From NCBI RefSeq assembly GCF_900070365.1, contig NZ_LN850107.1, positions 1,612,001-1,676,000 on the forward strand: a stretch of DNA of 64,000 bases. Reading direction: 5' to 3'. A program made the position numbers and the translations under genes. Source of the DNA: Alloactinosynnema sp. L-07. GTDB lineage: Bacteria; Actinomycetota; Actinomycetes; Mycobacteriales; Pseudonocardiaceae. Below are positions 13,359-30,533 of this stretch, piece after piece (within the stretch, counting starts at the first letter, position 1; every line of letters begins with the position of its first letter). Under the pieces are notes generated by a model. The model was not told the DNA's origin, made no database searches, and saw only the letters and a program-made list of their open reading frames with translations.

Positions 13359-13730
13359 TCAGCCCTCCACCACGGCCGCCGCGTCACCCAGGACCATCGG
13401 CAGCAGCACCCGAGCCCGCGGCGTCAGCGCGTACATCACCAATCGCCCGTCCCGCCGCGCCGACACCAACCCCGCGATCTTGAGCTGCCGCAGATGGTGT
13501 GACACGAGGTTCTGTGCCTGCCCCACCACCCACGACACGTCGCACACGCACAACTCGCCACCGGCGTAGAGGGCGGCGGCGATCGTCAACCGGGTCGGGT
13601 CACCCAACGCCCGCGCCGCCGCGGCAGCGGTCTCCACCGCGGGCAGGGCCGGAAGCCCGGCCCGGATCTCTTCCGCGTGCGGCAGATCCAGACAGAGCAG
13701 ATCGCACGCGTCTCCACGCCCAGCAGTCAT
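13359..13730 (-). CDS. ArsR/SmtB-family metal sensor, CadC-like
   Basis: This 123-residue winged-helix regulator has four cysteines arranged as C9, C13 and C61, C63 (ELCVCD in the recognition-helix region). This matches the alpha3N metal site of CadC (Cys7/Cys11 and Cys58/Cys60), which binds Cd, Pb and Zn. It lies 3 bp before the P-type ATPase gene, so it should repress that operon and release it on metal binding. A palindromic candidate operator covers the start codon, so the transcript may be leaderless or nearly so. Confidence 0.9.
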   Translation of the reverse strand: MTAGRGDACDLLCLDLPHAEEIRAGLPALPAVETAAAAARALGDPTRLTIAAALYAGGELCVCDVSWVVGQAQNLVSHHLRQLKIAGLVSARRDGRLVMYALTPRARVLLPMVLGDAAAVVEG

Positions 13731-13757
13731 ATCGATACCCTAACACTCATTGATATG
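13728..13757. promoter_or_regulatory. candidate ArsR-family operator of the metal-resistance operon
   Basis: CATATCGAT-N12-ATTGATATG forms an inverted repeat with one mismatch between 9-bp arms. It overlaps the ATG of the ArsR gene and sits where the promoter must be. AT-rich dyads with this spacing are typical of SmtB/ArsR operators. Confidence 0.55.
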
Positions 13758-13873
13758 GAATCCGCGGCCCGCGTCCGCACTGCACCTTGCCAGCGTTCTT
13801 GCGCAGCCGGGGGGCTTGAGCGGACCCCTGGACGCGGCGTCTCCGCAACCTGCTCACCGGCCGAGTCGCGCTC

Positions 13874-13903
13874 TTGACCACGTGATCGCGGACACCTTAG
13901 TCT
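13874..13903 (+). promoter_or_regulatory. predicted promoter of the sialidase gene
   Basis: TTGACC (13874-13879), an 18-base spacer and TAGTCT (13898-13903) fit a SigA/HrdB-type promoter. The GntR operator begins 8 bases after the -10 box. Two other operator-bearing promoters in this window have the same layout. Confidence 0.55.
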
Positions 13904-13911
13904 CCGACAAC

Positions 13912-13926
13912 GGACATCAGACGTCA
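13912..13926. promoter_or_regulatory. GntR (NanR-like) operator 1, sialidase
   Basis: GGACATCAGACGTCA matches the 15-bp dyad GGACRTC-N-GAYGTCC found at two other places (17501-17515 and 18336-18350), with one mismatch at the last base. It lies just downstream of the predicted -10 box, a position where a bound repressor would block transcription. Confidence 0.7.
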
Positions 13927-13965
13927 TGTGTCGGGTGTTCGCCCTGCGACTTGAAGGAGCTGCCA

Positions 13966-16233
13966 ATGCGTGGCGCTGCCGTGATTTCGCTGATCGTTGT
14001 CCTGTTGGCTGGGGGTGGGCCGCCCGCCGCTGTGGCCGGGCCCGCGGATCCGCCGGGTGTGTTCACCCAGCAGAACCTCGGCGCGACGATGGTGGCGCCG
14101 TTCGCCTCCTACCGGATCCCCGCGCTCGCGCACCTCGGTGGCGGCGTGCTCGTCGCCGCGTGGGATGGCAGGCCGGGCAGTGCCGCCGACGCGCCCAATC
14201 CGAATTCCATCGTGGTTCGCCGCAGCACTGACAACGGCGCCACCTGGACCGCCCAGGCCACCGCGCTCGCCGGGCACACCGGGACCGGGAAGTACGGCTA
14301 CAGCGACCCCAGCCTCGTGCATGACGCGGAGACCGGTGACCTGTTCATGTTCTCCGTGTACTCCAAGGACACCGGCGTGTTCGACAGCGCATGGGGCAAC
14401 GACGACGCGAACCGCTTGGTGCTCAGCGCGCAGGTCGCCAAGTCCAGCGACCAGGGTGTCACCTGGAGTGCCCCACGGCTGATCACGAACGTGGTCAAGC
14501 CGGGCGCGAACCCGGCCGCCCCGGTGCCAGGTGACGTGCGCGGCACCTTCGCCACCTCCGGCGAGGGCATCCAGCTCAAGTACGGGCCGCACAAGGGACG
14601 GCTCCTCCAGCAGTTCGCCGGGCACGTGCGGCAGGCCGACGGCTCAAACCAGTGGCAGGCCTACAGCGTGTACTCCGACGACCATGGCGCCACCTGGCGG
14701 ATGGGGACCCCGGTCGGCACCGCCATGGACGAGAACAAGGTCGTCGAACTGTCGAATGGCGATGTGCTCATGAACTCGCGGGACAACGCGGGCGGCGGGT
14801 ACCGCAAGACCGCTGTCTCCACCGATGGCGGCCAGAGCTACGGCCCGGTGAGCCAGGATCGCGAGCTGCCAGACCCGACCAACAACGCGTCCATCACCCG
14901 TCTCTTCCCGGACGCTCCCCAGGGCAGCGCGGACGCGCGGAAGCTGTTGTTCACCAACAGCAACAGCCAGACCAGCCGGGTCAACGGCTCGGCCAGGGTG
15001 TCGTGCGACGACGGCGCCAGTTGGACGTCGGTGCGCTCGTTCGCACCCGGCTTCGCGGCCTACTCCACCGCCACCCGGCTCGACAGCGGCCTGATCGGCG
15101 TGCTCTACGAGACCTCGTACACCACCGGCATCACCTTCGCCCGCTTCGACGACGCCTGGCTGAACCACCTGTGCGCGCCGATGACGATCGCGGACGCCAC
15201 CGTGCAGGCAGGCGCGTCGGTGTCGATCCCGGTCACCGTGGTCAACCAGACCGATGCCTCGCTGTCCGCCACCGCCGCGATCACCCCGCCCGCGGGCTGG
15301 ACCGCGTCCGCCCCGGTCCCGGTGACCGCCGCCGCGGGGGCGTCGACCATCGCGACGATCACGCTCACCGCGCCGAAGAACGCCACTGTCGGCGCGCATC
15401 GGGTCCTCGTCACTACTACCGCGGCGGACGGCCGCCAATCGCAGCGCGAGTTCACCGTCACCGCGCTGCCGTCGGCCGGGGTGGTCGTGATCGACGGGGT
15501 CCGGCTGTTCGGCCAGCGCACCGACACCGCGCGCGACCTGACCGCGAACCCATACACCGCGGGCGAGGTGGTGACCTATCGCTTCACCGGCACCAACACC
15601 GGCACGACGACCGTCTCGGTGTACCCGACGTCGGGCAACTTCGATGCCCCATTCGCCCCGCCGGGCACCGGTAATTGCCGCTACTCGGCACTGGCCGCGG
15701 GTGCCACCTACACCTGCTCCACCGCCAAGCACACGGTCACCGCGGCGGACGTGGCGGCCGGGTACTTCGTGCCGGACTCCGCGTGGCGCGTCGACCGGGG
15801 GACGGCGAACGCGACCGGGCGGATCGTCGGCGTCCCGGTGCCGCTGAGGGGTGGCGTGCTGACCGGCGTCGGTGACATCGCCGGGGTGACTGTCACCGGC
15901 GCGCGCACCGACACCCGGGACTACGTGGCCAACCCGTACACCGCGGGGGAGACCGTCGGCTACAACTGCCAGGTCCACAACACCGGCGCGGTCACGGTGT
16001 CGGTGGTGCCGACGGCGTCGAACATCGCCCGCACGGTGCCGCCGGGCGCGGGCAACTGCCGCCACACCGCCTTGGCCCCGGGAGCGGGATACACCAGCGC
16101 GACGCCGTACCGCGTGCTGACCGCCGCTGACGTGGCTCAGGGTTACTTCATCCCCGACACCACGTGGTCGGTCATCGCCGCATCAACCACCACGACGCGC
16201 CGCGTACTCGGTGACCCAGTGCTGGTCCGCTAA
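13966..16233 (+). CDS. secreted exo-alpha-sialidase (GH33) with C-terminal repeats
   Basis: The ATG at 13966 has AAGGAG upstream and opens a Sec signal peptide (about 25 residues, ending near AVAG). The mature part has YRIPALA near residue 48 (the FRIP-type arginine motif), then Asp-boxes STDNGATW, SSDQGVTW, SDDHGATW and STDGGQSY, which mark a six-bladed sialidase propeller; the Tyr of VLYETSY near 380 fits the nucleophile. A NEW3-type domain follows (IPVTVVNQTDASL..., about 410-505). Two homologous repeats of about 120 residues end the protein (each with ANPYTAGE and TAADVA.GYF.PD..W). It should release sialic acid from glycans outside the cell, feeding the transporter and Nan enzymes that share its operator. 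Confidence 0.92.
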   Translation: MRGAAVISLIVVLLAGGGPPAAVAGPADPPGVFTQQNLGATMVAPFASYRIPALAHLGGGVLVAAWDGRPGSAADAPNPNSIVVRRSTDNGATWTAQATALAGHTGTGKYGYSDPSLVHDAETGDLFMFSVYSKDTGVFDSAWGNDDANRLVLSAQVAKSSDQGVTWSAPRLITNVVKPGANPAAPVPGDVRGTFATSGEGIQLKYGPHKGRLLQQFAGHVRQADGSNQWQAYSVYSDDHGATWRMGTPVGTAMDENKVVELSNGDVLMNSRDNAGGGYRKTAVSTDGGQSYGPVSQDRELPDPTNNASITRLFPDAPQGSADARKLLFTNSNSQTSRVNGSARVSCDDGASWTSVRSFAPGFAAYSTATRLDSGLIGVLYETSYTTGITFARFDDAWLNHLCAPMTIADATVQAGASVSIPVTVVNQTDASLSATAAITPPAGWTASAPVPVTAAAGASTIATITLTAPKNATVGAHRVLVTTTAADGRQSQREFTVTALPSAGVVVIDGVRLFGQRTDTARDLTANPYTAGEVVTYRFTGTNTGTTTVSVYPTSGNFDAPFAPPGTGNCRYSALAAGATYTCSTAKHTVTAADVAAGYFVPDSAWRVDRGTANATGRIVGVPVPLRGGVLTGVGDIAGVTVTGARTDTRDYVANPYTAGETVGYNCQVHNTGAVTVSVVPTASNIARTVPPGAGNCRHTALAPGAGYTSATPYRVLTAADVAQGYFIPDTTWSVIAASTTTTRRVLGDPVLVR

Positions 16234-16247
16234 TCCAATGAACTGGC

Positions 16248-16286
16248 GGCGGGCCGGGAGCCGACGCACATCGCTCCCGGCCCGCC
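16248..16286. terminator. strong hairpin terminator after sialidase
   Basis: A perfect 14-bp GC-rich stem (16248-16261 with 16273-16286) closes an 11-base loop 14 bases after the sialidase stop codon. Confidence 0.8.
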
Positions 16287-16322
16287 ACTAGCACAACGGA
16301 ACGCCAGGGGCTAAACGAAACG

Positions 16323-16461
16323 GCCTGAATGGGTGGTTCGCCTTGATTTGGGGTGAATGGGCCTAAACTTTCGGCGCGGGTGGGCTTCACCTGGCCCACC
16401 TTTTAGACCCGCGCAGGCCCATTCGAGGGGCCCCAAATCAAGGCGAACCACCCATTCAGGC
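16323..16461. repeat. 139-bp nested palindromic element with 31-bp perfect arms
   Basis: Bases 16323-16353 are the exact reverse complement of 16431-16461. Inside them GAATGGGCCT pairs with AGGCCCATTC, GCGCGGGT with ACCCGCGC and GTGGGC with GCCCAC, so the whole element folds into one long hairpin. It sits between convergent genes, and its right arm supplies the TGA stop (16456-16458) of the esterase gene. It could be a miniature mobile repeat, a transcription barrier, or both. No target duplication is obvious. Confidence 0.85.
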
Positions 16462-17481
16462 ACCCACCCCGCGAGCCGCCGCGTGCGCAGTGCCCTGAAG
16501 CACGGCCCGAGCCCAAGCCAGTTCCTCAAGGCGATGGTGCTCACCGCCGCCTTCGTGGTCGTTGAACTCGTACACCCGCAGGTCCTTCGGACCCCCGTGG
16601 TTGTGGAACGCGGCGAAGCACGTCGACGCCGGGCACACCTGATCCATCATCGCGATGGCGAACAGCGCAGGCGCCGTGGCGCGGGCGGCGTGGACGGCGG
16701 CGTCGAAGTAAGACAAGGTGCGGAAGACGCGGTCCGGATCGGCGCGCGTGGCCGCCAGGTACGCGCCGATCTCGGTGTACGGCCTGCGAACCGTGGCGTC
16801 CAGGCCGGTGCCGCAGATCCGGACCGCGCGGCGGAAGTCGCACAGGAACGGCACGTTCGTCAGCACGCCGGCGAGGCCGTGGGCCAGCCCGGCCACAGCG
16901 AGAGCGAGCCCGCCGCCCTGGCTGTGCCCGGCCACGAAGACGCGGCCGGGGTCCACGTGGGGGAGTTGCCGCGTGGCGTCGGCGAACGCGACGGCGTCGG
17001 TGATCACGCGGCGGTAGTAGTGATCGTGCGGGTCGTCGATGCCTCGGGTGAGGAAGCCGGGCACGGCGGCCACGTGGGGTGGAGCGGGGTCGGGGGTGGC
17101 GCCGATCGCGGTGATCCACCCCTGTCCTCGGGTGTCCATCACCAGATGGGCGAACCCGGCGGCGGCCCAGAACAGGCTCTGGTGCGGCAGACCGCGCCCG
17201 CGACCGTAGCCGAGGAACTCCACGACGCACGGCAATGGCCCGTCGGCGTTGACGGGGACCTGTAGCCAGCCCTTGACCGGGTGCCCGCCGAAGCCCGGGA
17301 CGGTCACGTCATGCGTGATCACGCCGGTGAACCCGGTGTCGACAGGCCGAGCGACGACCGGGCCTGCCGAGGCTCGCGACTCGGCGAGGGTGGTGTCCCA
17401 GAACGCGTCGAAGTCGTCGGGTTCCTCGACGCGCGGCTGGAGCGCGAGGCACTCGTCGAGGGTGAGATCAGTCAGCGGCAT
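16456..17481 (-). CDS. acetylxylan esterase / cephalosporin-C deacetylase family (AXE1) hydrolase
   Basis: This 341-residue alpha/beta hydrolase has the AXE1 pattern: MPLTDLTLDECLALQP at the start, MDTRGQGW, nucleophile elbow GHSQGGG, the acid in MMDQVCPAST and the histidine in EGGGEHH. The start at 17481 is chosen for a GGAG site 8 bases upstream; an upstream GTG at 17499 is possible. Known members remove O-acetyl groups from sugars. Its promoter carries the same GntR operator as the sialidase and nan operon, so it may de-O-acetylate sialic acids or acetylated glycans, which is inference. No signal peptide is seen, so the protein is probably cytoplasmic. Confidence 0.85.
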   Translation of the reverse strand: MPLTDLTLDECLALQPRVEEPDDFDAFWDTTLAESRASAGPVVARPVDTGFTGVITHDVTVPGFGGHPVKGWLQVPVNADGPLPCVVEFLGYGRGRGLPHQSLFWAAAGFAHLVMDTRGQGWITAIGATPDPAPPHVAAVPGFLTRGIDDPHDHYYRRVITDAVAFADATRQLPHVDPGRVFVAGHSQGGGLALAVAGLAHGLAGVLTNVPFLCDFRRAVRICGTGLDATVRRPYTEIGAYLAATRADPDRVFRTLSYFDAAVHAARATAPALFAIAMMDQVCPASTCFAAFHNHGGPKDLRVYEFNDHEGGGEHHRLEELAWARAVLQGTAHAAARGVGA

Positions 17482-17500
17482 GAGCACTCCGAGTGACAAC

Positions 17501-17515
17501 GGACGTCAGATGTCC
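17501..17515. promoter_or_regulatory. GntR (NanR-like) operator 2, esterase
   Basis: GGACGTCAGATGTCC is a near-perfect dyad (7-bp arms around A) between the predicted -10 box and the esterase start codon. It matches the operators at 13912 and 18336. Confidence 0.75.
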
Positions 17516-17529
17516 GGTTTTCTGGCCGA

Positions 17530-17558
17530 ACGATAGGGACGTCTCGGGTACCCGTCAA
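17530..17558 (-). promoter_or_regulatory. predicted promoter of the esterase gene
   Basis: On the minus strand TTGACG (17558-17553), a 17-base spacer and TATCGT (17535-17530) form a good promoter. The -35 box overlaps the stop codon of the GntR gene, and the operator lies about 8 bases after the expected start point. Confidence 0.65.
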
Positions 17559-18283
17559 GCGAGCTTGGCGCGGGCGGTGCTGATGCGCTTGCGCACGGGG
17601 GCGTAGTGCTCGGCCACCGCGTCGCGGAAGGCGTCCGGGTCGCCTGCCCGCGCGGCCTCCGCGATCCTCCGGTGGACCTCGATCGTGTCGCGCTCGTCCT
17701 CGATGGTGGCCACCTGCAGGTGCGGGGCGACCACGCGGTAGACGTCCCAGAACACCGCCGACAGCTGGCTGATCAGCTGGTTGCCCATCGGCTGGACCAG
17801 CAGCCGGTGGAACTCGCGATCCGCCTCCACGAAACCGTCCACCTGGCCGGACCCGGCGCCCATCTGCTCCACCAGCCCGTCGAGTGAGTCCAGGTGGTCC
17901 GGGTCCAGGGCGCCGGTCCGGTCGGCCATGCCGCGCTCGAACAGCTCCCGCACGTCCACCAGATCGGACAGCACCTGGAAATCGTCCTCCGGGCTGAGCA
18001 GGCCGCGGAACTCCAGGCTTTCGACGAGCGCGGACAGGCTCAACCTGCCAACGTAGGTGCCGTGTCCATGGCGGACCTCGACGATGTCGAGGGCGTGCAA
18101 CGTCTTCACCGCCTCCCGGATGCTCGACCGGCTGACACCGAGGGCCGCGCACAGCTCGCCCTCCGTCGGCAGTGGATCGCCCGGCCGCAGGCGGTTGTCG
18201 AGGATGTAGCTCTTGATGCGCTGGGTGACCTCCTGGCGGCGCGGCGTGCGTTCCGGGACCTCTGCGAACTGAGAACCGACCAA
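17555..18283 (-). CDS. GntR/FadR-family regulator, probable NanR-type repressor of sialic acid genes
   Basis: The 242-residue protein has an N-terminal winged helix (LPTEGELCAALGVSRSSIREAVKTLHALDIV) and a C-terminal FCD ligand domain with candidate metal and ligand residues in DREFHRLL, VHRRI and EHYAPV. The start is a TTG at 18283 with GAAGGG upstream. The gene sits between the esterase gene and the divergent transporter-nan operon. A 15-bp dyad occurs at both flanking promoters and at the sialidase promoter, so this is the most likely binding protein. NanR proteins of Corynebacterium and E. coli are also GntR/FadR-type, using sialic-acid catabolites as effectors. Confidence 0.88.
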   Translation of the reverse strand: MVGSQFAEVPERTPRRQEVTQRIKSYILDNRLRPGDPLPTEGELCAALGVSRSSIREAVKTLHALDIVEVRHGHGTYVGRLSLSALVESLEFRGLLSPEDDFQVLSDLVDVRELFERGMADRTGALDPDHLDSLDGLVEQMGAGSGQVDGFVEADREFHRLLVQPMGNQLISQLSAVFWDVYRVVAPHLQVATIEDERDTIEVHRRIAEAARAGDPDAFRDAVAEHYAPVRKRISTARAKLA

Positions 18284-18287
18284 CGTC

Positions 18288-18316
18288 TTGACCCTTCTCG
18301 TGCGTCGGGCTACCTT
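18288..18316 (+). promoter_or_regulatory. predicted promoter of the sialic acid transport-catabolism operon
   Basis: TTGACC (18288-18293), a 17-base spacer and TACCTT (18311-18316) match the vegetative consensus. The operator at 18336-18350 lies about 14 bases downstream of the expected transcription start. Confidence 0.65.
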
Positions 18317-18335
18317 CTCACGCTATCAGGTCGTA

Positions 18336-18350
18336 GGACATCGGACGTCC
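18336..18350. promoter_or_regulatory. GntR (NanR-like) operator 3, transporter-nan operon
   Basis: GGACATCGGACGTCC has 7-bp arms with one mismatch around a central G, and is the third copy of the dyad at 13912 and 17501. It lies between the promoter and the GTG of the substrate-binding protein gene. Confidence 0.75.
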
Positions 18351-18384
18351 GATAACTCGACCCTCGAGTCCCAAGGAGGACAGC

Positions 18385-19965
18385 GTGTCGTTTCGGAACC
18401 GTGCGTGGTTCGGCATCCGCCGGACCACGCGGCTCACGGGGGTCGCGCTGGCCGCGGTCGTCGCGGTCAGTGCCTGCGGTGGTCCCAGCTCGACCGGCGC
18501 CGCCGCGCCGTCCGGGAAAGCCGACACCATCGAGGCAGGCATCTCGTACGGGCTGTCCACCGGGTTCGACCCGATGAACACCTCCGGTGCGACGCCGTTC
18601 GCCGCGAATCTGCACATCTTCGAGGCGCTGGTCGACCTCGACCCGGTCACCCGCAAGTCGTACCCGGCCCTCGCCGAGGCCATGCCGGAGAAGGTCAGCG
18701 ACACCAGCTACCGGGTGAAGCTGCGCTCCGGCGCCACCTTCCACAACGGCGACCCGGTCACCGCCGAGGACGTCGCCTTCACCTTCGGCCGCATCCTGGA
18801 CCCGGCGAACAAGTCGCTGATGCGCCAGTTCCTCCCCTTCCTCGCCTCGGTCACCGCCGTGGACGAGCGAACCGTTGAATTCACGCTGAGCACCCGCACC
18901 GCACTGTTCGCCGAGCGCCTCGCGGTGGCCCGGATCGTGCCCAAGAAGGTCGTCACCGCCGACCCGAAGGGCTTCGACGCCAAGCCGGTCGGCTCCGGCC
19001 CGTACGCGCTGGTCGAGGCGATCCAGCAGGACAAGATCGTGTTCAAGGGCTACGACCGCTACAACGGCCCGCGCCCGGCCAAGGTGCCGAACCTGGTTTG
19101 GCGGCTCACCGCCGACCCGGCGTCGCGGGTGAGCGCGATCGAGTCCGGGCAGGTGCACGCCATCGAGGACGTGCCTTACACCGACGTGCAGCGGCTGTCG
19201 CAGAAGATCAAGGTCGACTCGGTGCAGTCGTTCGGCATGTTGTTCCTGATGTTCAACACCTCGGCGGCGCCGTTCTCCGACAAGCGCGTCCGCCAGGCCC
19301 TGCACTACGCCATGGACACGCAGAAGATCATCGGCACCGCGATGGCGGGCAACGGCACCGCCGCGACCAGCTACGTCCAGAAGGGACACCCGGAGTACGT
19401 CGAGGCGTCCACCGTCTACACCCTGAACCAGGACAAGGCCAAGGCGCTGCTGGCCGAGGCGGGGGTCGGCGACCTGTCGATCACCCTGTCGCACACCGAC
19501 ACCGGCTGGGTCAAGGACATCGCGCCACTGGTGAAGGCGTCCTGGGACGCCATCGGCGTGAAGACCACCCTCGACGTCGCCGACTCCGCGGGCACCTATA
19601 AGAAGGTGGACGCGGGCCAGTTCCAGGTGCTGCTCGCCCCCGGCGACCCGTCGGTCTTCGGCAACGACCTCGACCTGCTGATGCGCTGGTTCTACGCCAA
19701 CGACACCTGGGTGAAGAAGCGTTTCCGCTGGGATGGCGCGCCGCAGAAGCAGGTCGTCGCGCTGCTCGACCAGGCCGCCGGGTCGGTCGACGCGGCCGAG
19801 CGGAAGAAGCTGTGGGGCCAGGCGATCGACATCGTCGCCGACGAGGTGCCGCTGTACCCGATCCTGCACCGCAAGCTGCCCACCGCCTGGAACGACAAGG
19901 CGCTGCCCGGGTTCGGCCCCTTGCCCACCACCGGCCTGGCGTTCCTGGACGTCGGCCGCGCCTGA
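18385..19965 (+). CDS. ABC importer substrate-binding lipoprotein (SBP_bac_5, probable sialic acid binding)
   Basis: The GTG start at 18385 follows AAGGAGG. The 526-residue product has a lipoprotein signal with lipobox VSAC (about residue 32) and the peptide/nickel-type binding fold (PF00496), including LRSGATFHNGDPVTAEDVAFTFGRI and a C-terminal DIVADEVPLYPILHR. Family members bind peptides, nickel or sugars. SatA of Haemophilus ducreyi is a precedent for sialic acid binding by this family, and the operon context (nanA, nanK, nanE, a shared operator with a sialidase) supports that substrate here. Confidence 0.85.
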   Translation: MSFRNRAWFGIRRTTRLTGVALAAVVAVSACGGPSSTGAAAPSGKADTIEAGISYGLSTGFDPMNTSGATPFAANLHIFEALVDLDPVTRKSYPALAEAMPEKVSDTSYRVKLRSGATFHNGDPVTAEDVAFTFGRILDPANKSLMRQFLPFLASVTAVDERTVEFTLSTRTALFAERLAVARIVPKKVVTADPKGFDAKPVGSGPYALVEAIQQDKIVFKGYDRYNGPRPAKVPNLVWRLTADPASRVSAIESGQVHAIEDVPYTDVQRLSQKIKVDSVQSFGMLFLMFNTSAAPFSDKRVRQALHYAMDTQKIIGTAMAGNGTAATSYVQKGHPEYVEASTVYTLNQDKAKALLAEAGVGDLSITLSHTDTGWVKDIAPLVKASWDAIGVKTTLDVADSAGTYKKVDAGQFQVLLAPGDPSVFGNDLDLLMRWFYANDTWVKKRFRWDGAPQKQVVALLDQAAGSVDAAERKKLWGQAIDIVADEVPLYPILHRKLPTAWNDKALPGFGPLPTTGLAFLDVGRA

Positions 19966-19972
19966 CCCTCGA

Positions 19973-20005
19973 CCGGGGCCCGCTCCCTGCCGGGGCGGGC
20001 CCCGG
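19973..20005 (+). terminator. intercistronic hairpin (attenuator or mRNA stabiliser)
   Basis: An 11-bp perfect GC stem (19973-19983 with 19995-20005) lies in the 70-bp gap between the binding-protein and first permease genes, the only sizeable gap in the operon. Such hairpins usually allow more binding protein than permease to be made. Confidence 0.6.
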
Positions 20006-20035
20006 CCCCGATCCGACTGACTGGACGGACTGACC

Positions 20036-20986
20036 ATGGTCGCGTTCCTCCGCCTGGCGCTCCGCCGTCTGGCGATGCTCCCCGTGATGATCCTGGGAAT
20101 CTCGTTCCTGGTTTTCGTGCTGCTCCGTCTGTCCAAGGTGGACCCCGCGTACAACGCTCTGGGCGAGGGCGCCTCCGAGGAGGCCCGCGCGGCGTTCACC
20201 GCCGAGAACGGCCTGGACGACCCGCTGATGGTGCGCTACTTCAGCTTCCTCGGCAGGCTGGTGCAGGGCGACCTGGGCGTGACCCTGCGCCCGGCGCACC
20301 CGGTGTCCGACCGGATCGCGTCCGCGTTCCCGCTCACCCTCCAGCTGACCGCACTCGGCCTGCTGCTGGCCGTGGTGCTCGCGCTCGTCCTCGGCGTCAC
20401 CGGAGCGTTGTACCGGGACCGCTGGCCGGACCACCTCACCCGCGTGCTGTCCATCGCCGGGATCGCGGTGCCGTCGTTCTGGCTGGGCATCGTGCTGATC
20501 CACAATCTCGCGGTCAAGCGGCCGCTGTTCCCGGTCGGCGGCTACATCAACCCGGCCGACTCGGTCGGCGGGTGGCTGGAGTCGATGACGCTGCCCGCGA
20601 TCGCGCTGGCCGTGCCGGTGGCCTGCTCGCTGGCCCGGCTGGTGCGAACCTCGATGGTCGCCGAACTGGACCGTGACTACGTGCGCACCGCCCGCGGCAA
20701 CGGCCTGCCCACCGCGCTGGTGCTGCGGTCGGTCCTGCGTAACGCCCTGGTCACCCCGCTGACCGTGCTCGGCCTGAGGGTCGGCTACCTGCTCAGCGGC
20801 GCTGTCGTGATCGAGATGCTGTTCCGCCTGCCGGGCATGGGCCAGCTCGTCGTCCAGGGCGTCGCGGGCGGCGACACCGCGATCGTGCAGGGCACCGTGA
20901 TCACCATCGCCGTCACCTTCCTCGTGGTCAACGTCGTCGTCGACCTCCTCTACCTGTTGGTCAACCCCCGCGTCAGGACGGTGTGA
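20036..20986 (+). CDS. ABC importer permease, DppB type
   Basis: This 316-residue protein has about six membrane helices. The N-terminus reads LRRLAMLPVMILGISFLVFVLLRL as in DppB/OppB permeases, and the EAA loop (RTARGNGLPTALVLRSVLRNALVTPLTVLG) contacts the ATPase. It is followed 1 bp later by the second permease gene. It forms the membrane channel of the putative sialic acid importer together with the permease half of the next protein. Confidence 0.9.
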   Translation: MVAFLRLALRRLAMLPVMILGISFLVFVLLRLSKVDPAYNALGEGASEEARAAFTAENGLDDPLMVRYFSFLGRLVQGDLGVTLRPAHPVSDRIASAFPLTLQLTALGLLLAVVLALVLGVTGALYRDRWPDHLTRVLSIAGIAVPSFWLGIVLIHNLAVKRPLFPVGGYINPADSVGGWLESMTLPAIALAVPVACSLARLVRTSMVAELDRDYVRTARGNGLPTALVLRSVLRNALVTPLTVLGLRVGYLLSGAVVIEMLFRLPGMGQLVVQGVAGGDTAIVQGTVITIAVTFLVVNVVVDLLYLLVNPRVRTV

Positions 20987-20987
20987 C

Positions 20988-22940
20988 ATGCGGACCCGAT
21001 TCCTCCGCTCGCTGGCCCGCCCGGGCATCGCGTTCCGCACGCTGCCACCGCGCTCGCGGGTGGCGCTCGGTGTGCTGATCACCGTGCTGCTGGGCGCCGT
21101 GCTCGCCCCGCTGATCACCGGCGACCCGCTGGTCACGCACACCCCGGCGGTGCCGCCGTCGGCTGAGCACTGGTTCGGCACCGACAAGATCGGCCGCGAC
21201 GTGTTCACCCGCGTCGTGCACGGCGCCCGCTACTCGCTGCTTATCGGCCTCGGCGCGACCTTGGTGGCGCTGCTCGCGGGCGCGGTGCTCGGCTCACTCG
21301 CCGCGACATCGCCGAAGTGGGGCGACGAGGCGCTGATGCGCATACTCGACGTGGTGATGGCGTTCCCGCCGATCGCGCTCGCGCTGGTCCTCGTGGTGTC
21401 GTTCGGCAAGAGCATCCCGGTGCTGATCCTGACCATCGCCTTCGTCTACACGCCGATGCTCGCCCGGGTCGTGCGAGCGAACGTCCTCGCGCAGTACGGC
21501 GAGGACTACGTGGCGGCGGAGAAGGTGATCGGCGCGCGGCGCGGGTACATCGTGGTCAAGCACATCGCCGTCAACTGCGCCGCTCCGGTCCTGGTATTCG
21601 CCACCGTGTTGGTCGCCGAGGCGATCATCTTCGAGGCCAGCCTGTCGTTCATCGGCGCGGGCGTGCAGGACCCGGAGCCGAGTTGGGGCAGCGTCCTCAA
21701 CTACGGCCGGGAGATCCTGCTCAACGGCGGCTGGTGGGCCACGATGTTTCCCGGCCTGGCCATCCTGGTCACGGTGCTGGCGTTGAACATCCTCGCCGAG
21801 GGGCTCACCGACGCCTCGGCGGCGCCCGCCGCGCGACGCCGCTCGTCCGGGGACGAGCCGGTGGCCGAGGCCGCCGAGGCGTCCGCTCCGGTCACCGCAC
21901 CGTCTACTGTGGATGACTCGCTGGCGGTGCTGGCGCGGGTCGCCCGCACCAGGGCCAGGTTCGCGTCGTCGGTCCGCGCTGACGCGCCAGTGCTGTTGTC
22001 AGTCGAGGACCTGTCGATCCGGTTCCCGGACCGCTACGGCGATGTGGCCGTCGTCGACGGCATCTCGTTCAGCGTGCGCGAGGGCGAGACGCTCGGTCTC
22101 GTCGGCGAGTCCGGCTGCGGCAAGAGCATCACCAGCCTGGCGATCACCGGGCTGCTGCCGCGCACCGCCGAGGTGTCCGGCCGCGTGACCTACCGGGGCG
22201 ACGACCTGCTCACGCTGCCGCCGAGGCAGCGCCGCGCGCTCGCCGGACCCGAGATCGCCATGGTGTACCAGGACGCGCTGTCGTCGCTGAACCCGTCGGT
22301 GCTCGTCGGCAGGCAGCTCGCGCAGCTCACCCGCCGCGGCGGCCGCAAGACCCCGGCCGAGCTGCTCGACCTGGTCGGGCTGTCCCCGAAGCGCACGCTG
22401 CGCAGCTACCCGCACGAGCTGTCCGGCGGGCAGCGGCAGCGGGTGCTGATCGCGATGGCGCTGTCGCGCGAACCGCGCCTGCTCATCGCCGACGAGCCGA
22501 CGACCGCGCTCGACGTCACCGTCCAGGCACAGGTGGTCGAGCTGCTCGTGCGGCTGCGCGACGAACTCGGCTTCGCGATGGTGCTCGTCTCCCACGACCT
22601 CGCGCTGGTCGGCGAGCTGGCGCACCGGGTCGCGGTGATGTACGCGGGCCAGGTCGCCGAGCTGGGCACCACGTCGTCGGTGCTGGCCGCCCCAACGCAC
22701 CACTACACCCGCGGCCTGCTCGGCTCGGTGGTGTCGCTGGAGGCCGGGGCTCCTCGCCTGCACCAAATCCGCGGCGTCGTCCCCGCCCCGTCCGGCTTCG
22801 GCGCGGGCTGCCGGTTCGCCTCCCGCTGCCCGGCGGCCACCGAGGTGTGCCGCACCGTCCACCCCGGACTCACCGGGCCCGGCGAGCACGCGTTCGCTTG
22901 CCACCACCCGGCCACCGTCCTCGAGGGGAGCACCCGATGA
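20988..22940 (+). CDS. fused DppC-type permease and DppD-type ATPase
   Basis: One 650-residue frame joins two proteins that are usually separate. Residues 1 to about 275 form a DppC permease (GTDKIGRDVFTRVVHGARYSL, EAA loop with GARRGYIVVKHIAVN, SFIGAGVQDPEPSWG). An alanine-rich linker of about 55 residues follows, then a DppD ATPase with Walker A GESGCGKS near 373, LSGGQRQR near 477 and DEPTTALD near 503, ending with the oligopeptide-transporter C-terminal cysteine region (GCRFASRCPAA). The reading frame is uninterrupted through the linker. The following ATPase gene starts in a 4-bp overlap. Confidence 0.9.
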   Translation: MRTRFLRSLARPGIAFRTLPPRSRVALGVLITVLLGAVLAPLITGDPLVTHTPAVPPSAEHWFGTDKIGRDVFTRVVHGARYSLLIGLGATLVALLAGAVLGSLAATSPKWGDEALMRILDVVMAFPPIALALVLVVSFGKSIPVLILTIAFVYTPMLARVVRANVLAQYGEDYVAAEKVIGARRGYIVVKHIAVNCAAPVLVFATVLVAEAIIFEASLSFIGAGVQDPEPSWGSVLNYGREILLNGGWWATMFPGLAILVTVLALNILAEGLTDASAAPAARRRSSGDEPVAEAAEASAPVTAPSTVDDSLAVLARVARTRARFASSVRADAPVLLSVEDLSIRFPDRYGDVAVVDGISFSVREGETLGLVGESGCGKSITSLAITGLLPRTAEVSGRVTYRGDDLLTLPPRQRRALAGPEIAMVYQDALSSLNPSVLVGRQLAQLTRRGGRKTPAELLDLVGLSPKRTLRSYPHELSGGQRQRVLIAMALSREPRLLIADEPTTALDVTVQAQVVELLVRLRDELGFAMVLVSHDLALVGELAHRVAVMYAGQVAELGTTSSVLAAPTHHYTRGLLGSVVSLEAGAPRLHQIRGVVPAPSGFGAGCRFASRCPAATEVCRTVHPGLTGPGEHAFACHHPATVLEGSTR

Positions 22941-23905
22941 TCCGCGTCGATGACGTGCACGTGCGCCACACCGCGCGCAGCGGCGGGGTGTTCCGCCGCG
23001 ACAAGGTCTACGCGCTGACCGGCGCGACGCTGGAGGTCGGCCGAGGCGAGGTGGTCGGCATCGTCGGCGAGTCCGGCTGCGGCAAGTCCACCCTCGCCCG
23101 CGTCCTCACCGGTCTCCAGCGTCCGACCGCGGGCACGGTGACCTTCCGGGGCGAGGACCTGTGGGCGATGCCCGCCGGGCGGCGCCGCGCCGAGTTCGGT
23201 TCGGCCGTCGGCGTGGTGTTCCAGGACCCGTCGACCGCGCTCAACCCGCGGCTGCCGGTCGGGCGGGTGTTGCGCGACCCGCTCGACGTGCACCGCCGGG
23301 GCACGCCGCGCCAGCGGGCCGGGCGCGTCGAGGAACTGCTGGACCTGGTCGGGCTCCCCGGGCACGTCGCCCGCGCATTGCCGTCGCAGCTGTCCGGCGG
23401 GCAGCGCCAGCGGGTGGCCGTGGCCAGGGCGCTGGCCCTGGAACCGGAACTGGTCGTGGCCGACGAGCCGACCAGCGCGCTGGACGTGTCGGTGCGGGCG
23501 CAGGTGTTGAACCTGCTGGTCGACCTGCGGGCCAGGCTCGGGCTGAGCCTGGTGTTCATCTCGCACGACATCCAGACCGTGCGGTACCTGGCCGATCGGC
23601 TCGCCGTCCTCTACCTCGGCCGCGTGGTCGAGGAGGGTCCGGCCGACACCATCGCCGCCGCGCCCGCCCACCCGTATACCCGGGCACTGTTCTCGGCGAC
23701 GCCCAGCCTGCTTGAGGACGTCGAGCGGATCGTGCTGCACGGTCCGGTGCCGTCCGCGACGCACCCGCCGTCGGGCTGCCCGTTCCGCACCCGCTGTTGG
23801 AAGGCCACCGACGAGTGCGCCGTCGCCTTCCCCGCGCCTTCCACTGTGGATGGTCACACCGTCCACTGTGTCCACCCGGAAACCCCCGCTAGGAGCCCGA
23901 AGTGA
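22937..23905 (+). CDS. ABC importer ATPase, DppF type
   Basis: The ATG at 22937 overlaps the preceding stop (ATGA). The 322-residue ATPase has GESGCGKST, VVFQDPSTALNPR, LSGGQRQRVAVARALALEPELVVADEPTSALD and a C-terminal FRTRCWKATDEC segment typical of DppF/OppF, where cysteines may hold an iron-sulfur cluster. It pairs with the ATPase half of the upstream fusion protein. The nanA gene starts in a GTGA overlap, tying import and catabolism into one transcript. Confidence 0.92.
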   Translation: MIRVDDVHVRHTARSGGVFRRDKVYALTGATLEVGRGEVVGIVGESGCGKSTLARVLTGLQRPTAGTVTFRGEDLWAMPAGRRRAEFGSAVGVVFQDPSTALNPRLPVGRVLRDPLDVHRRGTPRQRAGRVEELLDLVGLPGHVARALPSQLSGGQRQRVAVARALALEPELVVADEPTSALDVSVRAQVLNLLVDLRARLGLSLVFISHDIQTVRYLADRLAVLYLGRVVEEGPADTIAAAPAHPYTRALFSATPSLLEDVERIVLHGPVPSATHPPSGCPFRTRCWKATDECAVAFPAPSTVDGHTVHCVHPETPARSPK

Positions 23906-24810
23906 CCAGTCCCCGATTCACCGGCGTCGTCCCGCCGATCGTGACCCCGATGACCGCGGACGGCGCGGTGGACGTGGCGTCGTTGGAGCGGCTGGTCTCG
24001 TTCCTCCTGGACGCGGGCGTGACCGGGTTGTTCGTCCTGGGCAGCTCCGGTGAGACCGCGTACCTCACCGACGACCAGCGCACCCGCGTTCTGGAGGTGG
24101 TCATCGGCGCGACCGCCGGGCAGGTCCCGGTGATCGCGGGCGCCATCGAGACCACCACGAACCGGGTGGTGGAGCGCGCGGCCGTGGCGGCGAAACTGGG
24201 CGCGGACGCGGTGGTGGCAACCGCGCCGTTCTACGTGCGCACCCACGACACCGAGATCGACCGGCACTTCCGGGCGATCGCCGCGGCCGTCGACCTGCCG
24301 CTGCTCGCCTACGACGTCCCGGTCTGCGTGCACACCAAGCTGTCCACCGATCTGCTGCTCGACCTCGCCGCCGACGGCGTGCTGGCCGGGGTGAAGGACT
24401 CCAGCGGCGACGACGTGGCGTTCCGGCGGCTGTGCCTGCTCGCCCCGCCCGAGTTCGCGCTGCTCACCGGGCACGAGGTCGTGGTGGACGCGATGCTGCT
24501 CGGCGGCGCGCACGGCGCTGTGCCGGGCCTCGGCAACGTCGACCCGCACGGGTACGTCCGTCTGCACGCCGCGGCCTCGGCCGGGGACTGGACGGCCGCC
24601 CGAGCCGAGCAGGACCGCCTGGCCCGGCTGTTCTCCATCGTGTTCGCCGCGCAGGGCACCTCCGGCGGCGCGGCCGGGGTCGGTGCGTTCAAGACCGCGC
24701 TGGCACTGCGCGGGATCATCGCGGGCAACGCGGTGAGCGCGCCGATGCGGTCGCTCGACGCCGCCGAGACCGCGGCCGTGCGCGCGCTGCTCGACGAGGC
24801 CGGGCTGTGA
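23902..24810 (+). CDS. nanA: N-acetylneuraminate lyase (DapA/NanA family)
   Basis: This 302-residue class I aldolase has the family motifs GSSGE (47-51), Y137 in LLAYDVP and the Schiff-base K165 in LAGVKDSSGDD, and these Tyr and Lys positions match E. coli NanA. The predicted reaction cleaves N-acetylneuraminate to N-acetylmannosamine and pyruvate in the cytoplasm. Close paralogues act on other 2-keto-3-deoxy acids, but the order nanA-nanK-nanE with an importer and sialidase regulon makes sialic acid the best substrate. The GTG start at 23902 overlaps the transporter stop. Confidence 0.85.
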   Translation: MTSPRFTGVVPPIVTPMTADGAVDVASLERLVSFLLDAGVTGLFVLGSSGETAYLTDDQRTRVLEVVIGATAGQVPVIAGAIETTTNRVVERAAVAAKLGADAVVATAPFYVRTHDTEIDRHFRAIAAAVDLPLLAYDVPVCVHTKLSTDLLLDLAADGVLAGVKDSSGDDVAFRRLCLLAPPEFALLTGHEVVVDAMLLGGAHGAVPGLGNVDPHGYVRLHAAASAGDWTAARAEQDRLARLFSIVFAAQGTSGGAAGVGAFKTALALRGIIAGNAVSAPMRSLDAAETAAVRALLDEAGL

Positions 24811-25706
24811 CCCAGGCCGCCGCGAACCTGGTCGCGGGGGTCGACATCGGCGGCACCAAGATCGCCACGGGCCTGGTGGCCGAGGACGGGACACTCGTCC
24901 GCTCGGCCACCGTGCCCACCCCGCGCCGCCCGGACGCGGTGCTCGACGCGGTGGCCGCGCTGGTCGCCGATCTCGGGCCGGTCGTCGCCGCCGGGGTCGG
25001 CAGCGCGGGCGTGATCGACCCGGCCAGCGGGCGGGTGCTGTCGGCCACCGACGCTCTGCCCGGTTGGGGCGGCACCGACCTGCGCGGCGGGTTGACCGCG
25101 CGGCTGGGTGTCCCGGTCGCGGTGGACAACGACGTGCGCGCGCACGCGGTGGGGGAGTGCTGGCTGGGCGCCGCCGCCGGGCTGCGACATGTGCTCGTCG
25201 TCGCCGTCGGCACCGGGGTCGGTGCGTCCTATGTGGTGGATGGTGTGGTGGTGAACGGCGCGCACGCCGCCGCCGGGCATCTCGGGCACGTCCCGGTTCC
25301 CGCGGCGGCCGCCTCGACGTGCCCGTGCGGCGGAACCGGGCACGTCGAGGCGGTGGCCTCCGGCCCGGCGCTGCTCGCCGCCTATGGGGACGCGCCCGAC
25401 CTGGCCGCGGTCGCCCAGCGGGCGGCCGACGGCGATGGCCGCGCGCGAGAGGTCCTTGCGAGGGGCGCTGCCGCGCTCGGGCAGGCGATCGGGGGCGTGA
25501 TGAACATGCTCGACCCGGACTTGGTGCTGGTCACCGGCGGGGTCAGCCAGTGCGGCCCGGAGTGGTGGGAGCCGCTGCGCGCGGGCGTGGCCGCCGAGGT
25601 GCTGCCGCCGTTGCGCGACACCGTGGTGCGCGCGGGCGCCCTCGGCTCGGCGGCGGCCGTGCTCGGCGCGGCCCGCCTCGGCTGGGCGGTGGCCCGTGCG
25701 GCGTGA
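24807..25706 (+). CDS. nanK: ROK-family kinase, probable N-acetylmannosamine kinase
   Basis: The GTG at 24807 overlaps the nanA stop by 4 bp; the frame is open further upstream but that part is antisense-like shadow. The 299-residue product has the ROK phosphate motif DIGGTK (13-18), substrate motif VAVDNDVRAHAVGE and the zinc-loop segment CPCGGTGHVEA near 172-182. In classical ROK kinases the loop reads CxCGxxGC; here the third cysteine is histidine, which could still bind zinc. The expected reaction is ATP-dependent phosphorylation of N-acetylmannosamine at O6. Confidence 0.85.
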   Translation: MTQAAANLVAGVDIGGTKIATGLVAEDGTLVRSATVPTPRRPDAVLDAVAALVADLGPVVAAGVGSAGVIDPASGRVLSATDALPGWGGTDLRGGLTARLGVPVAVDNDVRAHAVGECWLGAAAGLRHVLVVAVGTGVGASYVVDGVVVNGAHAAAGHLGHVPVPAAAASTCPCGGTGHVEAVASGPALLAAYGDAPDLAAVAQRAADGDGRAREVLARGAAALGQAIGGVMNMLDPDLVLVTGGVSQCGPEWWEPLRAGVAAEVLPPLRDTVVRAGALGSAAAVLGAARLGWAVARAA

Positions 25707-26370
25707 CGTGCTCGCGGCCGTGCGCGGCGGGCTGATCGTGTCCTGCCAGGCGTACCCGGGAGAGCCGATGCGCGACGCCGACGTGATGCGGCGGGTGGCC
25801 GAGTCCGTGCTCGACGGGGGTGCGGTTGGCGTGCGGGCGCAGGGCCTTGACGACCTGCGCGCGATCCGCGCCGCCACAACTGCCCCGTTGATCGGCCTAT
25901 GGAAGGACGGCGACGCGGACGTCTACATCACGCCCACCGCCCGGCACGCCGCCGCCGTCGCGGAGACCGGCGCGGACGTCGTCGCGTTCGACGCCACCGA
26001 CCGGCCCCGCCCGGATGGTGGACGGATCGCCGACCTGATCGCGGTCGTGCACTCCGCCGGAGCCCTCGCCATGGCTGATGTGTCCACACTGGACGAAGCG
26101 CTGGCCGCGCGGGACCTCGGCGCAGACGTCGTCGGCACCACCCTCGCCGGGTACACCCCGGCCACCGCCCACCTCACCGGGCCCGCCCTCCTGCTCGTGG
26201 AACAGCTGGCAGAGCGCGGCGTTCCGGTCATCGCCGAGGGCCGCATCGGTACCCCGGAGCAGGCCGCGCGGGCACTGGACGCGGGCGCGCTCGCGGTCGT
26301 CGTCGGCAGCGCGATCACCCACCCCACCCGCATCACCCGCACCTTCGTCGCCGCCATCGACAACCGCTGA
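25696..26370 (+). CDS. nanE: N-acetylmannosamine-6-phosphate 2-epimerase
   Basis: This 224-residue TIM-barrel protein begins MRRDVLAAVRGGLIVSCQAYPGEPM, and has GAVGVRAQGLDDLRAIR, PLIGLWK and a C-terminal phosphate site (VIAEGRIGTPEQA...ALAVVVGSAI), all typical of NanE. It converts N-acetylmannosamine-6-phosphate to N-acetylglucosamine-6-phosphate. Its GTG start lies 11 bp inside nanK. NagA and NagB, needed for the next steps, are not in this window. Confidence 0.92.
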   Translation: MRRDVLAAVRGGLIVSCQAYPGEPMRDADVMRRVAESVLDGGAVGVRAQGLDDLRAIRAATTAPLIGLWKDGDADVYITPTARHAAAVAETGADVVAFDATDRPRPDGGRIADLIAVVHSAGALAMADVSTLDEALAARDLGADVVGTTLAGYTPATAHLTGPALLLVEQLAERGVPVIAEGRIGTPEQAARALDAGALAVVVGSAITHPTRITRTFVAAIDNR

Positions 26371-26387: not shown

Positions 26388-26434
26388 TTGACACGTGTCA
26401 ATATTCCCGGTCATAGTTGGCACGTGTCAACTAT
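26388..26434. promoter_or_regulatory. two palindromic operators over a promoter (TetR type)
   Basis: TTGACACGTGTCAA (26388-26401) is a perfect palindrome and a second one at 26413-26434 (core GTTGGCACGTGTCAAC, one mismatch) follows, with centres 29 bp apart. TTGACA in the first and CATAGT (26412-26417) 18 bases later give a possible promoter, so binding would cover both -35 and -10 boxes. A related site precedes the lipocalin gene at 31661. The TetR gene at 29931 is the likely source of the binding protein. Confidence 0.7.
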
Positions 26435-29930: not shown

Positions 29931-30533
29931 ATGCGACCACGCCTGGTGAGCGACGAGGTGCTCCTCGACGCCGCGCTGCTCGCCTTCGCCGAACTCGGCT
30001 ACGAAGGCGCGTCCGTGCGCGCCCTGTGCAGGCGCCTCGACATCAGCCACAACACCCTCAACCAGCGGTTCGGTTCCAAAGACCAACTCTGGCACGCGGC
30101 GGTCGACCATGGCTTCAAACACCTGGTCGGCGAGCTGCTCAGTGCCATCACCACGGCAGGCGACGACCCGTTCGACCAACTCCGCGCGTCGGCGTTGAGC
30201 TTCCTCGCCACGACGCGGGCGAACCCCGGGTTGATCCACATCATCAACCAGGAGTCCGCCCGCCCCGGCGGTTCACGCTATGAGTATCTGTTCCACCGCT
30301 ACATCGCGCCGATCAACGAACTCGGCTTGCGCCCATTGCGCCAGTTGCAAGCCGAAGGTGTGGTCCGACCGGGTCCGGTGTCGACCATCTTCTTCTACCT
30401 CACCACCTACGGCCTCGGCCTGATGGGCAGCCACCCGGAATCGTTCGATTCCCTGGGAGACAAGGATGTCGACCAGGAGCAGGCCGCGGCGCAGGCTGTC
30501 GAGATGGTGCTCGACAGCCTGCGCGCGCGCTGA
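29931..30533 (+). CDS. TetR-family regulator of the PEP-enzyme operon
   Basis: This 200-residue TetR protein follows the phosphotransferase by 10 bp and is probably co-transcribed. The helix-turn-helix is at about 22-50 (ASVRALCRRLDISHNTLNQRFGSKDQLW). The C-terminal ligand domain includes FLATTRANPGLIHIINQESARPGG, as in TetR proteins that respond to large hydrophobic ligands. Its likely targets are the TTGACA..TGTCAA palindromes at 26388, 26413 and 31661. Confidence 0.88.
   Translation: MRPRLVSDEVLLDAALLAFAELGYEGASVRALCRRLDISHNTLNQRFGSKDQLWHAAVDHGFKHLVGELLSAITTAGDDPFDQLRASALSFLATTRANPGLIHIINQESARPGGSRYEYLFHRYIAPINELGLRPLRQLQAEGVVRPGPVSTIFFYLTTYGLGLMGSHPESFDSLGDKDVDQEQAAAQAVEMVLDSLRAR

Follow-up and report, generated by a model that had tools for sequence, protein, structure and literature searches.

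A predicted sialic acid regulon of Alloactinosynnema sp. L-07 with one operator word at three promoters and a likely FadR-type repressor

The gene cluster for sialic acid utilization (nan) described here lies in a 64,000-nucleotide stretch of Alloactinosynnema sp. L-07 (the window), positions 1,612,001–1,676,000 of a genome of 7,405,112 bases in one contig. It comprises a sialidase gene on the plus strand; a convergent AXE1 esterase gene and a FadR-type GntR regulator gene, both on the minus strand; and a divergent plus-strand operon (18385–26370) for a SatA-type binding protein, a permease, a fused permease–ATPase, an ATPase, and the products of nanA, nanK, and nanE (Table 1). One DNA word recurs at three promoters of this cluster, and sequence comparison suggests, with a probability of roughly three in four, that these genes form a nan regulon which the cluster's own FadR-type GntR protein likely represses until sialic acid is present.

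The word GGACATCNGACGTC, a 14-mer in the sense of transcription, has exactly three exact matches genome-wide, at the promoters of the sialidase, of the esterase, and in the divergent gntR/importer region, each copy being oriented in the transcription sense. A previous sequence-only reading of this DNA placed a single 15-bp operator at all three promoters. Its 15-mer consensus GGACRTCNGAYGTCC is indeed exact at 17501–17515 and 18336–18350, while the sialidase copy at 13912–13926 (GGACATCAGACGTCA) has one mismatch, at the final base. In the genome-wide scan proposed in that reading, the 15-mer has no exact match besides those at 17501 and 18336; with one mismatch, the sialidase site is picked up along with two unrelated places. 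With up to two mismatches, 90 forward matches are seen in the genome vs 53 for the control, and 4 in the window vs 3.2 expected; at this level the 15-mer says little and is unusable alone. For GGACATCNGACGTC, one mismatch adds six further places in the genome, vs 0 and 1 matches on the two strands for the reversed control at up to one mismatch. Five of these places are inside long frames with the look of genuine genes (HflX-like, GuaB-like, S41 peptidase, GH18-like, and glycosyltransferase, identified by reading the translations, with no family search), and the sixth, at genome position 3038358, is ambiguous, close to a gene start; no nan genes are found near any of the six, within 3-kb loci.

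Promoter-like sequences TTGACS-N16-19-TAnnnT occur four times in the window (0.37 expected; none of 100 shuffles has as many), and three of the four adjoin operator sites. The dyad is downstream of the −10 hexamer at all three sites, with gaps of 8, 14, and 19 bases, in agreement with the 8–20 bases given in the sequence-only reading. The further copies that it proposed to look for upstream of nagA and nagB were not found: no operator-like site is present within 1.5 kb of nagA (genome position 5642438; best score −0.1 with the matrix described below), and the nagB model TIGR00502 finds nothing in the genome. Since that model has no match, the step after glucosamine-6-phosphate may use another deaminase.

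The form of the operator was refined by comparison with other actinobacteria. A NanE alignment scan of named genomes yielded 574 loci, of which the best 80, nearest in NanE and not a random sample, were analyzed; tblastn finds gntR in 52 of them, the importer binding protein in 54, nanA in 63, nanK in 71, a sialidase in 11, and AXE1 in 6. Apart from the window, 39 loci yielded a divergent gntR–importer region for analysis, namely locus L048 and 38 of the 80. The best site in these regions is built from 7-bp units RTCNGAY set end to end, each a FadR-type GTC-N-GAC palindrome; 31 of the 39 regions contain a 21-bp row of three units with at most two mismatches at 18 defined positions (in each of the 31, 0 of 100 shuffles are as good). 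By sequence, the units fit the FadR-subfamily palindrome GTM-N(0-1)-KAC, for which extra half-sites 7–12 nt from the centre have also been described (PMC4494728). RTCNGAY is its own reverse complement, so that the three-unit row is palindromic and at the same time a direct repeat. A logo of 21 non-redundant sites has its strong columns in the 21-bp row and a weaker signal in the flanks, which is partly promoter. Identity at lag 7 in these sites is 0.71 in the core vs 0.31 in the flanks, the core value being partly built in, because the sites were chosen with the three-unit pattern. The alignment thus points to an operator that is mainly three abutting units, usually 21 bp long. The 15-bp dyad of the sequence-only reading, shared by the three transcription units as claimed, would be the core of this row, made up of the central unit and the adjoining half of either neighbour, and is better read in this longer form. 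A three-unit match with one mismatch at genome position 4390377 was considered as a regulon member and rejected, as it sits between frames unlike nan genes.

The window was scanned on both strands with a matrix built from the 21 sites, all of which come from importer promoters of other genomes. In the 64 kb, the twelve best matches listed are all registers of the three window sites; the best registers score 26.4, 23.7, and 20.6, the lowest of the twelve listed scores 8.5, and the window mean is −35.7. In the 80 NanE loci, the site accompanies the regulator: where gntR matches over 180 aa or more, 39 of 50 loci have it, vs 4 of the 30 other loci (Fisher p = 2e-8). Sialidase and AXE1 promoters of other loci were scored with the tested locus left out of matrix training and with gene starts extrapolated from the alignment. 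For sialidases (nine tested of 14 loci matching), a site at 0/200 shuffles is found in L048, L078, and L118, the last being common to the importer; the L057 site is weak (4/200), and in L101 the match at 0/200 is 398 bases off, with a two-mismatch site nearer the promoter. For nan-linked AXE1 genes (six tested of seven), sites are seen at L069 and L144 (0/200) and L083 (1/200). Taken together, the comparative evidence supports a tie of the operator to this regulator family and to these genes.

The regulator has a GntR-type helix-turn-helix domain followed by an FCD domain, both above the Pfam cut-offs, and so belongs to the FadR subfamily, as the sequence-only reading had it (PF00392 and PF07729). 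The GntR domain starts at residue 17; in contrast to Escherichia coli NanR, there is no 32-residue N-terminal extension. The zinc ligands of E. coli NanR, Asp172, His176, His222, and His244 (PMC8012715), align with the identical D155, H159, H204, and H226, and Arg128 with the identical R112. In an alignment of 11 sequences that includes the window's, the three histidines and R112 do not vary, and the aspartate hardly varies.

A second copy of the regulator gene (L046) is located about 20 kb from the contig end with no nan gene match around it, and eight other genomes of the genus have a homologue 66–71% identical to the regulator. Around the genus homologues and the second copy, there is no match to nanA, nanK, nanE, or the binding protein (the L052 locus being only 7.7 kb long) and no exact two-unit or three-unit site; the genus homologues are treated as paralogues. 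A quick tree of 69 regulators places the window protein in a 12-row set (Shimodaira–Hasegawa-like approximate likelihood ratio test, SH-aLRT, 99) that otherwise consists of two nan-linked proteins and nine paralogues of the genus. Of the paralogue loci, L050, L051, and L054 were studied in detail: each has a neighbouring gene that resembles, by its translation, a 6-phosphogluconate dehydratase gene, followed in L051 and L054 by what read as genes for an aldolase and a SIS-domain protein, and nanE was not found in the genomes of the three. By gene neighbourhood, this regulator type seems to have been redeployed in the genus beside Entner–Doudoroff-like and SIS-domain sugar genes. Among 16 genomes of the genus, nanE is found only in the window's own, hence gain or repeated loss of the cluster is likely.

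The esterase, which we take to be of the CE7 type, has the serine motif GHSQG and no signal peptide evident by eye. Its match to PDB structure 1vlq ('acetyl xylan esterase', 'Cephalosporin-C deacetylase') scores 308 bits, and the alignment pairs the presumed Ser/Asp/His regions; we assume that these Ser-Asp-His residues are the catalytic ones. No NanS-type Pfam family, for which we take SASA to be the name, is among the window protein matches. One of the six AXE1 relatives in the 80 NanE loci is only 29% identical; at E ≤ 1e-80, AXE1 is found in 5 of the 80 loci vs about 0.02 expected from the phylum sample, a figure that uses the nominal database size, assumes a 5-Mb genome, and rises slightly with smaller genomes. 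In the sample of 396 phylum genomes, 20 have an AXE1 relative at E ≤ 1e-50, with 25 genes in total, and the window's gene and that of L144 are the ones with nan-type genes within 1.5 kb on each side. A close relative (E ≤ 1e-105) was found in 32 of 392 genomes of one related genus, and 30 of the 32 loci were examined. All 30, which are related to each other and not independent events, have gntR and an importer gene adjoining axe1, and an operator-like site (matrix score above 12, either strand) with a promoter-like sequence in the 200 bases upstream of axe1; the exact 14-mer is found there in 18. The statement of the sequence-only reading that standard nan clusters lack AXE1 is therefore too strong, given the six NanE loci and the 30 loci of the related genus, and also since Streptomyces nan clusters may contain a nanS-type accessory gene (PMC8754123).

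In the esterase tree, the window's protein groups with those of L064 (Micromonospora) and L144 (100/100), and Agromyces with Cryobacterium (97/84); on this evidence nan-linked AXE1 falls into two well-supported esterase groups. The label 'nan-linked' requires four changes in the best tree and three to four in bootstraps, with none of 200 having one, although a single origin is compatible with the well-supported branches alone, and genes were scored as 'not linked' from 1.5 kb of flanking sequence only. Separate recruitments of AXE1 to nan loci are likely.

The remaining genes agree with the pathway from sialidase to N-acetylglucosamine-6-phosphate (GlcNAc-6-phosphate) described in the sequence-only reading, except that nanA and nanK rest partly on context. 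The sialidase has the YRIP motif, five Asp-boxes, two C-terminal DUF7507-type stretches, and a likely signal peptide, judged by eye; we assign it to GH33, taking the RIP motif and Asp-boxes as marks of that family. The importer is of the SatABCD type, with a SatA-like binding protein and dipeptide-type parts of an ATP-binding cassette (ABC) system; the solved relative 5z99 is SatA with N-acetylneuraminate (Neu5Ac) bound (PMC11364026). The fused permease–ATPase is a single reading frame, and long matches to it are seen in many related loci. The best solved relative of the nanA candidate is 5c54, 'Dihydrodipicolinate synthase/N-acetylneuraminate lyase' (302 bits); it scores below the curated nanA cut-offs (124.3 vs 281 and 104.6 vs 382) and below that of dapA (169.5 vs 206.15), and its identity as nanA is favoured by context. 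The nanK candidate is likewise below the equivalog cut-offs (105.9 vs 283 and 92.2 vs 450), while nanE passes its own.

Table 1. Features of the predicted nan regulon, in window coordinates
Feature	Position	Strand	Basis
Predicted sialidase promoter, TTGACC-18-TAGTCT	13874–13903	+	consensus match only
Operator 1 (AACGGAC ATCAGAC GTCATGT), dyad core at 13912	13909–13929	+	matrix 23.7; 0/200 shuffles as high
Sialidase, GH33-type by motifs	13966–16233	+	Pfam BNR_2 (81.9 bits), BNR_3, DUF7507
AXE1 (CE7-type) esterase, 341 aa	16456–17481	-	PF05448, 306 bits (cut-off 21)
Operator 2 (ACCGGAC ATCTGAC GTCCGTT), between gntR and esterase	17498–17518	-	matrix 20.6; 0/200 shuffles
Predicted esterase promoter, TTGACG-17-TATCGT	17530–17558	-	pattern match
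FadR-type GntR regulator, predicted NanR-like repressor, start codon uncertain	17555–18283	-	PF00392 (72.5 bits), PF07729 (77.2 bits)
Predicted importer-operon promoter, TTGACC-17-TACCTT	18288–18316	+	pattern match
Operator 3 (GTAGGAC ATCGGAC GTCCGAT), divergent gntR/importer region	18333–18353	+	matrix 25.8 (+), 26.4 (-); 0/200 shuffles
Solute-binding protein, SatA type (SBP_bac_5)	18385–19965	+	Pfam; 586 bits to PDB 5z99
ABC importer permease	20036–20986	+	Pfam
Fused importer permease–ATPase, 650 aa	20988–22940	+	BPD_transp_1 and ABC_tran
ABC importer ATPase	22937–23905	+	Pfam
nanA candidate, N-acetylneuraminate lyase, DHDPS family	23902–24810	+	Pfam; context
ROK-family kinase, nanK by context	24807–25706	+	Pfam ROK
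nanE epimerase	25696–26370	+	NF002231, 279 bits (cut-off 189)

The proposed regulon would work as follows. The GntR protein would bind as dimers, each RTCNGAY unit providing one GTC-N-GAC palindrome, and neighbouring dimers on the three abutting units may co-operate, similar to E. coli NanR on its repeats. As the sites are at or just after the predicted transcription starts, the bound protein is proposed to block RNA polymerase. N-acetylneuraminate is the most probable inducer, and its carboxylate would contact the conserved metal site. The secreted sialidase would free sialic acid, which the SatABCD-type importer would take up. The probably cytoplasmic AXE1 esterase may remove O-acetyl groups, which would otherwise impede NanA or the NanK phosphorylation step, and NanA, NanK, and NanE would then lead to GlcNAc-6-phosphate.

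Several results weigh against this proposal. Eight of the 39 importer regions have three to six mismatches to the row (L076, L077, L082, L121, L132, L137, L138, and L139). The shuffle counts are not blind, as some of the loci tested had already served to derive the unit; only the matrix test leaves the window out. Eleven of the 50 loci with a gntR homologue have no clear site, as do four of the nine tested sialidases (L062, L070, L072, and L104). No separate site is seen for three of the six tested AXE1 genes (L063, L064, and L081); in L064 the gene follows nanE and in L063 it follows gntR, in the same direction, hence these two may be co-transcribed. The 21-bp pattern with at most one mismatch matches 33 of the 396 phylum genomes, with 56 forward matches vs 22 for the reversed control, and importer genes are found beside four of 30 fetched pattern loci (L192, L194, which is the window, L198, and L212); the degenerate pattern at this level is not specific alone. 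The NanR model NF003011 gives the regulator 106.5 bits vs a cut-off of 260, though it is the best-scoring curated model. Of the Neu5Ac contacts in E. coli NanR, Asn165, Arg203, Asn215, and Gln221 are not conserved in the regulator, and a gap lies opposite His214 in the alignment; for this reason, the inducer could be a later intermediate. Finally, the second copy of the regulator (L046; G000:C1:7384847-7385536) is 74% identical and could bind the same sites.

This last point leads to a rather improbable alternative, in which the orphan paralogue at 7.385 Mb mainly, or both proteins, bind the operators, and the local GntR protein is not the sole regulator. The DNA-binding helix regions of the two are nearly identical in the alignment. 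However, no nan gene match, three-unit site, or exact two-unit site is present in the 20 kb around the paralogue (one two-unit site, at a distance of about 4 kb, has a mismatch), and relatives keep the gntR gene physically adjoining the operator, which favours the local protein. Activation instead of repression from these sites is a still weaker candidate; nan regulators can activate, as stated for the RpiR-type NanR of Streptococcus pneumoniae, but the sites downstream of the predicted −10 at all three promoters suit a block, E. coli NanR exerts its repression downstream of the polymerase site (PMC8012715), and the NanR of Bifidobacterium is called a repressor (PMC4746261). Hardly credible is a role of the dyad as an mRNA-leader structure instead of a DNA operator. 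It is palindromic and located in or near the predicted 5' transcribed regions; in other genomes, however, it takes the form of a row of abutting 7-bp units and not of a stem with a loop, the site goes with the presence of the regulator gene, and no Rfam match at E ≤ 0.1 is found in 13700–18500.

Of all the alternatives, the least improbable, though still unlikely, concerns the esterase, which might be a passenger acting on acetylated plant or antibiotic sugars (acetyl-xylan, cephalosporin C) and sharing the regulator by location only. The names of its solved relatives agree with such substrates, and pneumococcal Axe made no measurable contribution in growth, colonization, or virulence models (PMC5352144). 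On the other hand, the same enzyme releases acetate from bovine submaxillary mucin and potentiates NanA on it in vitro, where it also increased the amount of sialic acid freed from mucin (PMC5352144). An operator-like site with gntR and importer genes at all the examined, if related, loci of the related genus, the enrichment of AXE1 near NanE, and its nan linkage in two esterase groups also argue for the esterase as a member of the nan regulon.

With the local GntR protein as the likely repressor, the cluster belongs to a known kind of system, of which it is a well-organised new example. Similar to E. coli NanR, the regulator is of the FadR (FCD) type with the same four metal ligands, and one repeat operator serves three operons, downstream of the polymerase site (PMC8012715); an esterase gene is also part of the E. 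coli regulon, there nanS (PMC3658417). The differences are that the E. coli operator has (GGTATA)3 repeats, the window 7-bp GTC-N-GAC units, and that in the window the esterase is of the AXE1 type and the importer an ABC system. With actinobacterial nan clusters (PMC8754123), the window shares nanA-nanK-nanE, an SBP_bac_5 (ST3) importer, and a fadR gene, the latter being reported in 226 of 234 nan clusters of the class Actinomycetia; the terms esterase, operator, GntR, and NanR are absent from the main text of that 2022 survey. The NanR proteins of Bifidobacterium breve and Corynebacterium glutamicum are, like the predicted regulator, GntR repressors of nan genes, that of Bifidobacterium being called N-acetylneuraminate-responsive (PMC4746261), and regulators of Bifidobacteriaceae with similar sites fall into the same comparison (L098, L100, and L127). 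The binding protein resembles SatA of the Haemophilus ducreyi SatABCD system, whose host, genomic context, and regulator differ. AXE1/CE7 esterases such as 1vlq and pneumococcal Axe share the family and the presumed catalytic regions, whereas the window's esterase is predicted to be co-regulated with nan genes. Our literature searches, as far as they reach, show neither this operator nor AXE1 described for actinobacterial nan clusters, and we do not claim that such a description is absent from print.

A broader reading, which is tentative and against which we would lean slightly, is a phylum-wide actinobacterial NanR code, in which three abutting GTC-N-GAC palindromes 7 bp apart would be bound by co-operative dimers and would control a sialate O-acetylesterase of the CE7 type, cytoplasmic and brought into nan regulons on more than one occasion as a replacement for NanS. 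The 21-bp row would then be, by analogy, a GC-rich counterpart of the E. coli GGTATA repeats. Already for the window, an annotation guess becomes a testable regulon with a precise site, and the same operator grammar is seen across distant actinobacteria, soil genera and Bifidobacteriaceae included. The regulatory evidence also suggests that AXE1-type 'acetyl xylan esterases' can belong to sialic acid catabolism, so that many of them may carry the wrong name. Of most value to a specialist are the refined operator and the recurrent AXE1 partner.

Two further elements were noted near the cluster. Between the convergent sialidase and esterase genes (16323–16461), there is a perfect 31-bp inverted repeat with 77 bases between the arms, forming a very stable predicted hairpin (−107 kcal/mol, z −11.7) with no Rfam match. 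The arm occurs in the genome 44 times forward and 43 times reverse (up to three mismatches), mostly in pairs about 104 bases apart, and the hairpin is one of a dispersed family of about 44 elements. Just downstream of nanE, two near-identical 14-bp palindromes, TTGACACGTGTCAA and TTGGCACGTGTCAA at 26388–26401 and 26417–26430, precede a DUF7065/DUF7064 gene and are perhaps the operator of another regulator, such as the product of the gene at 29931, TetR-like by eye.

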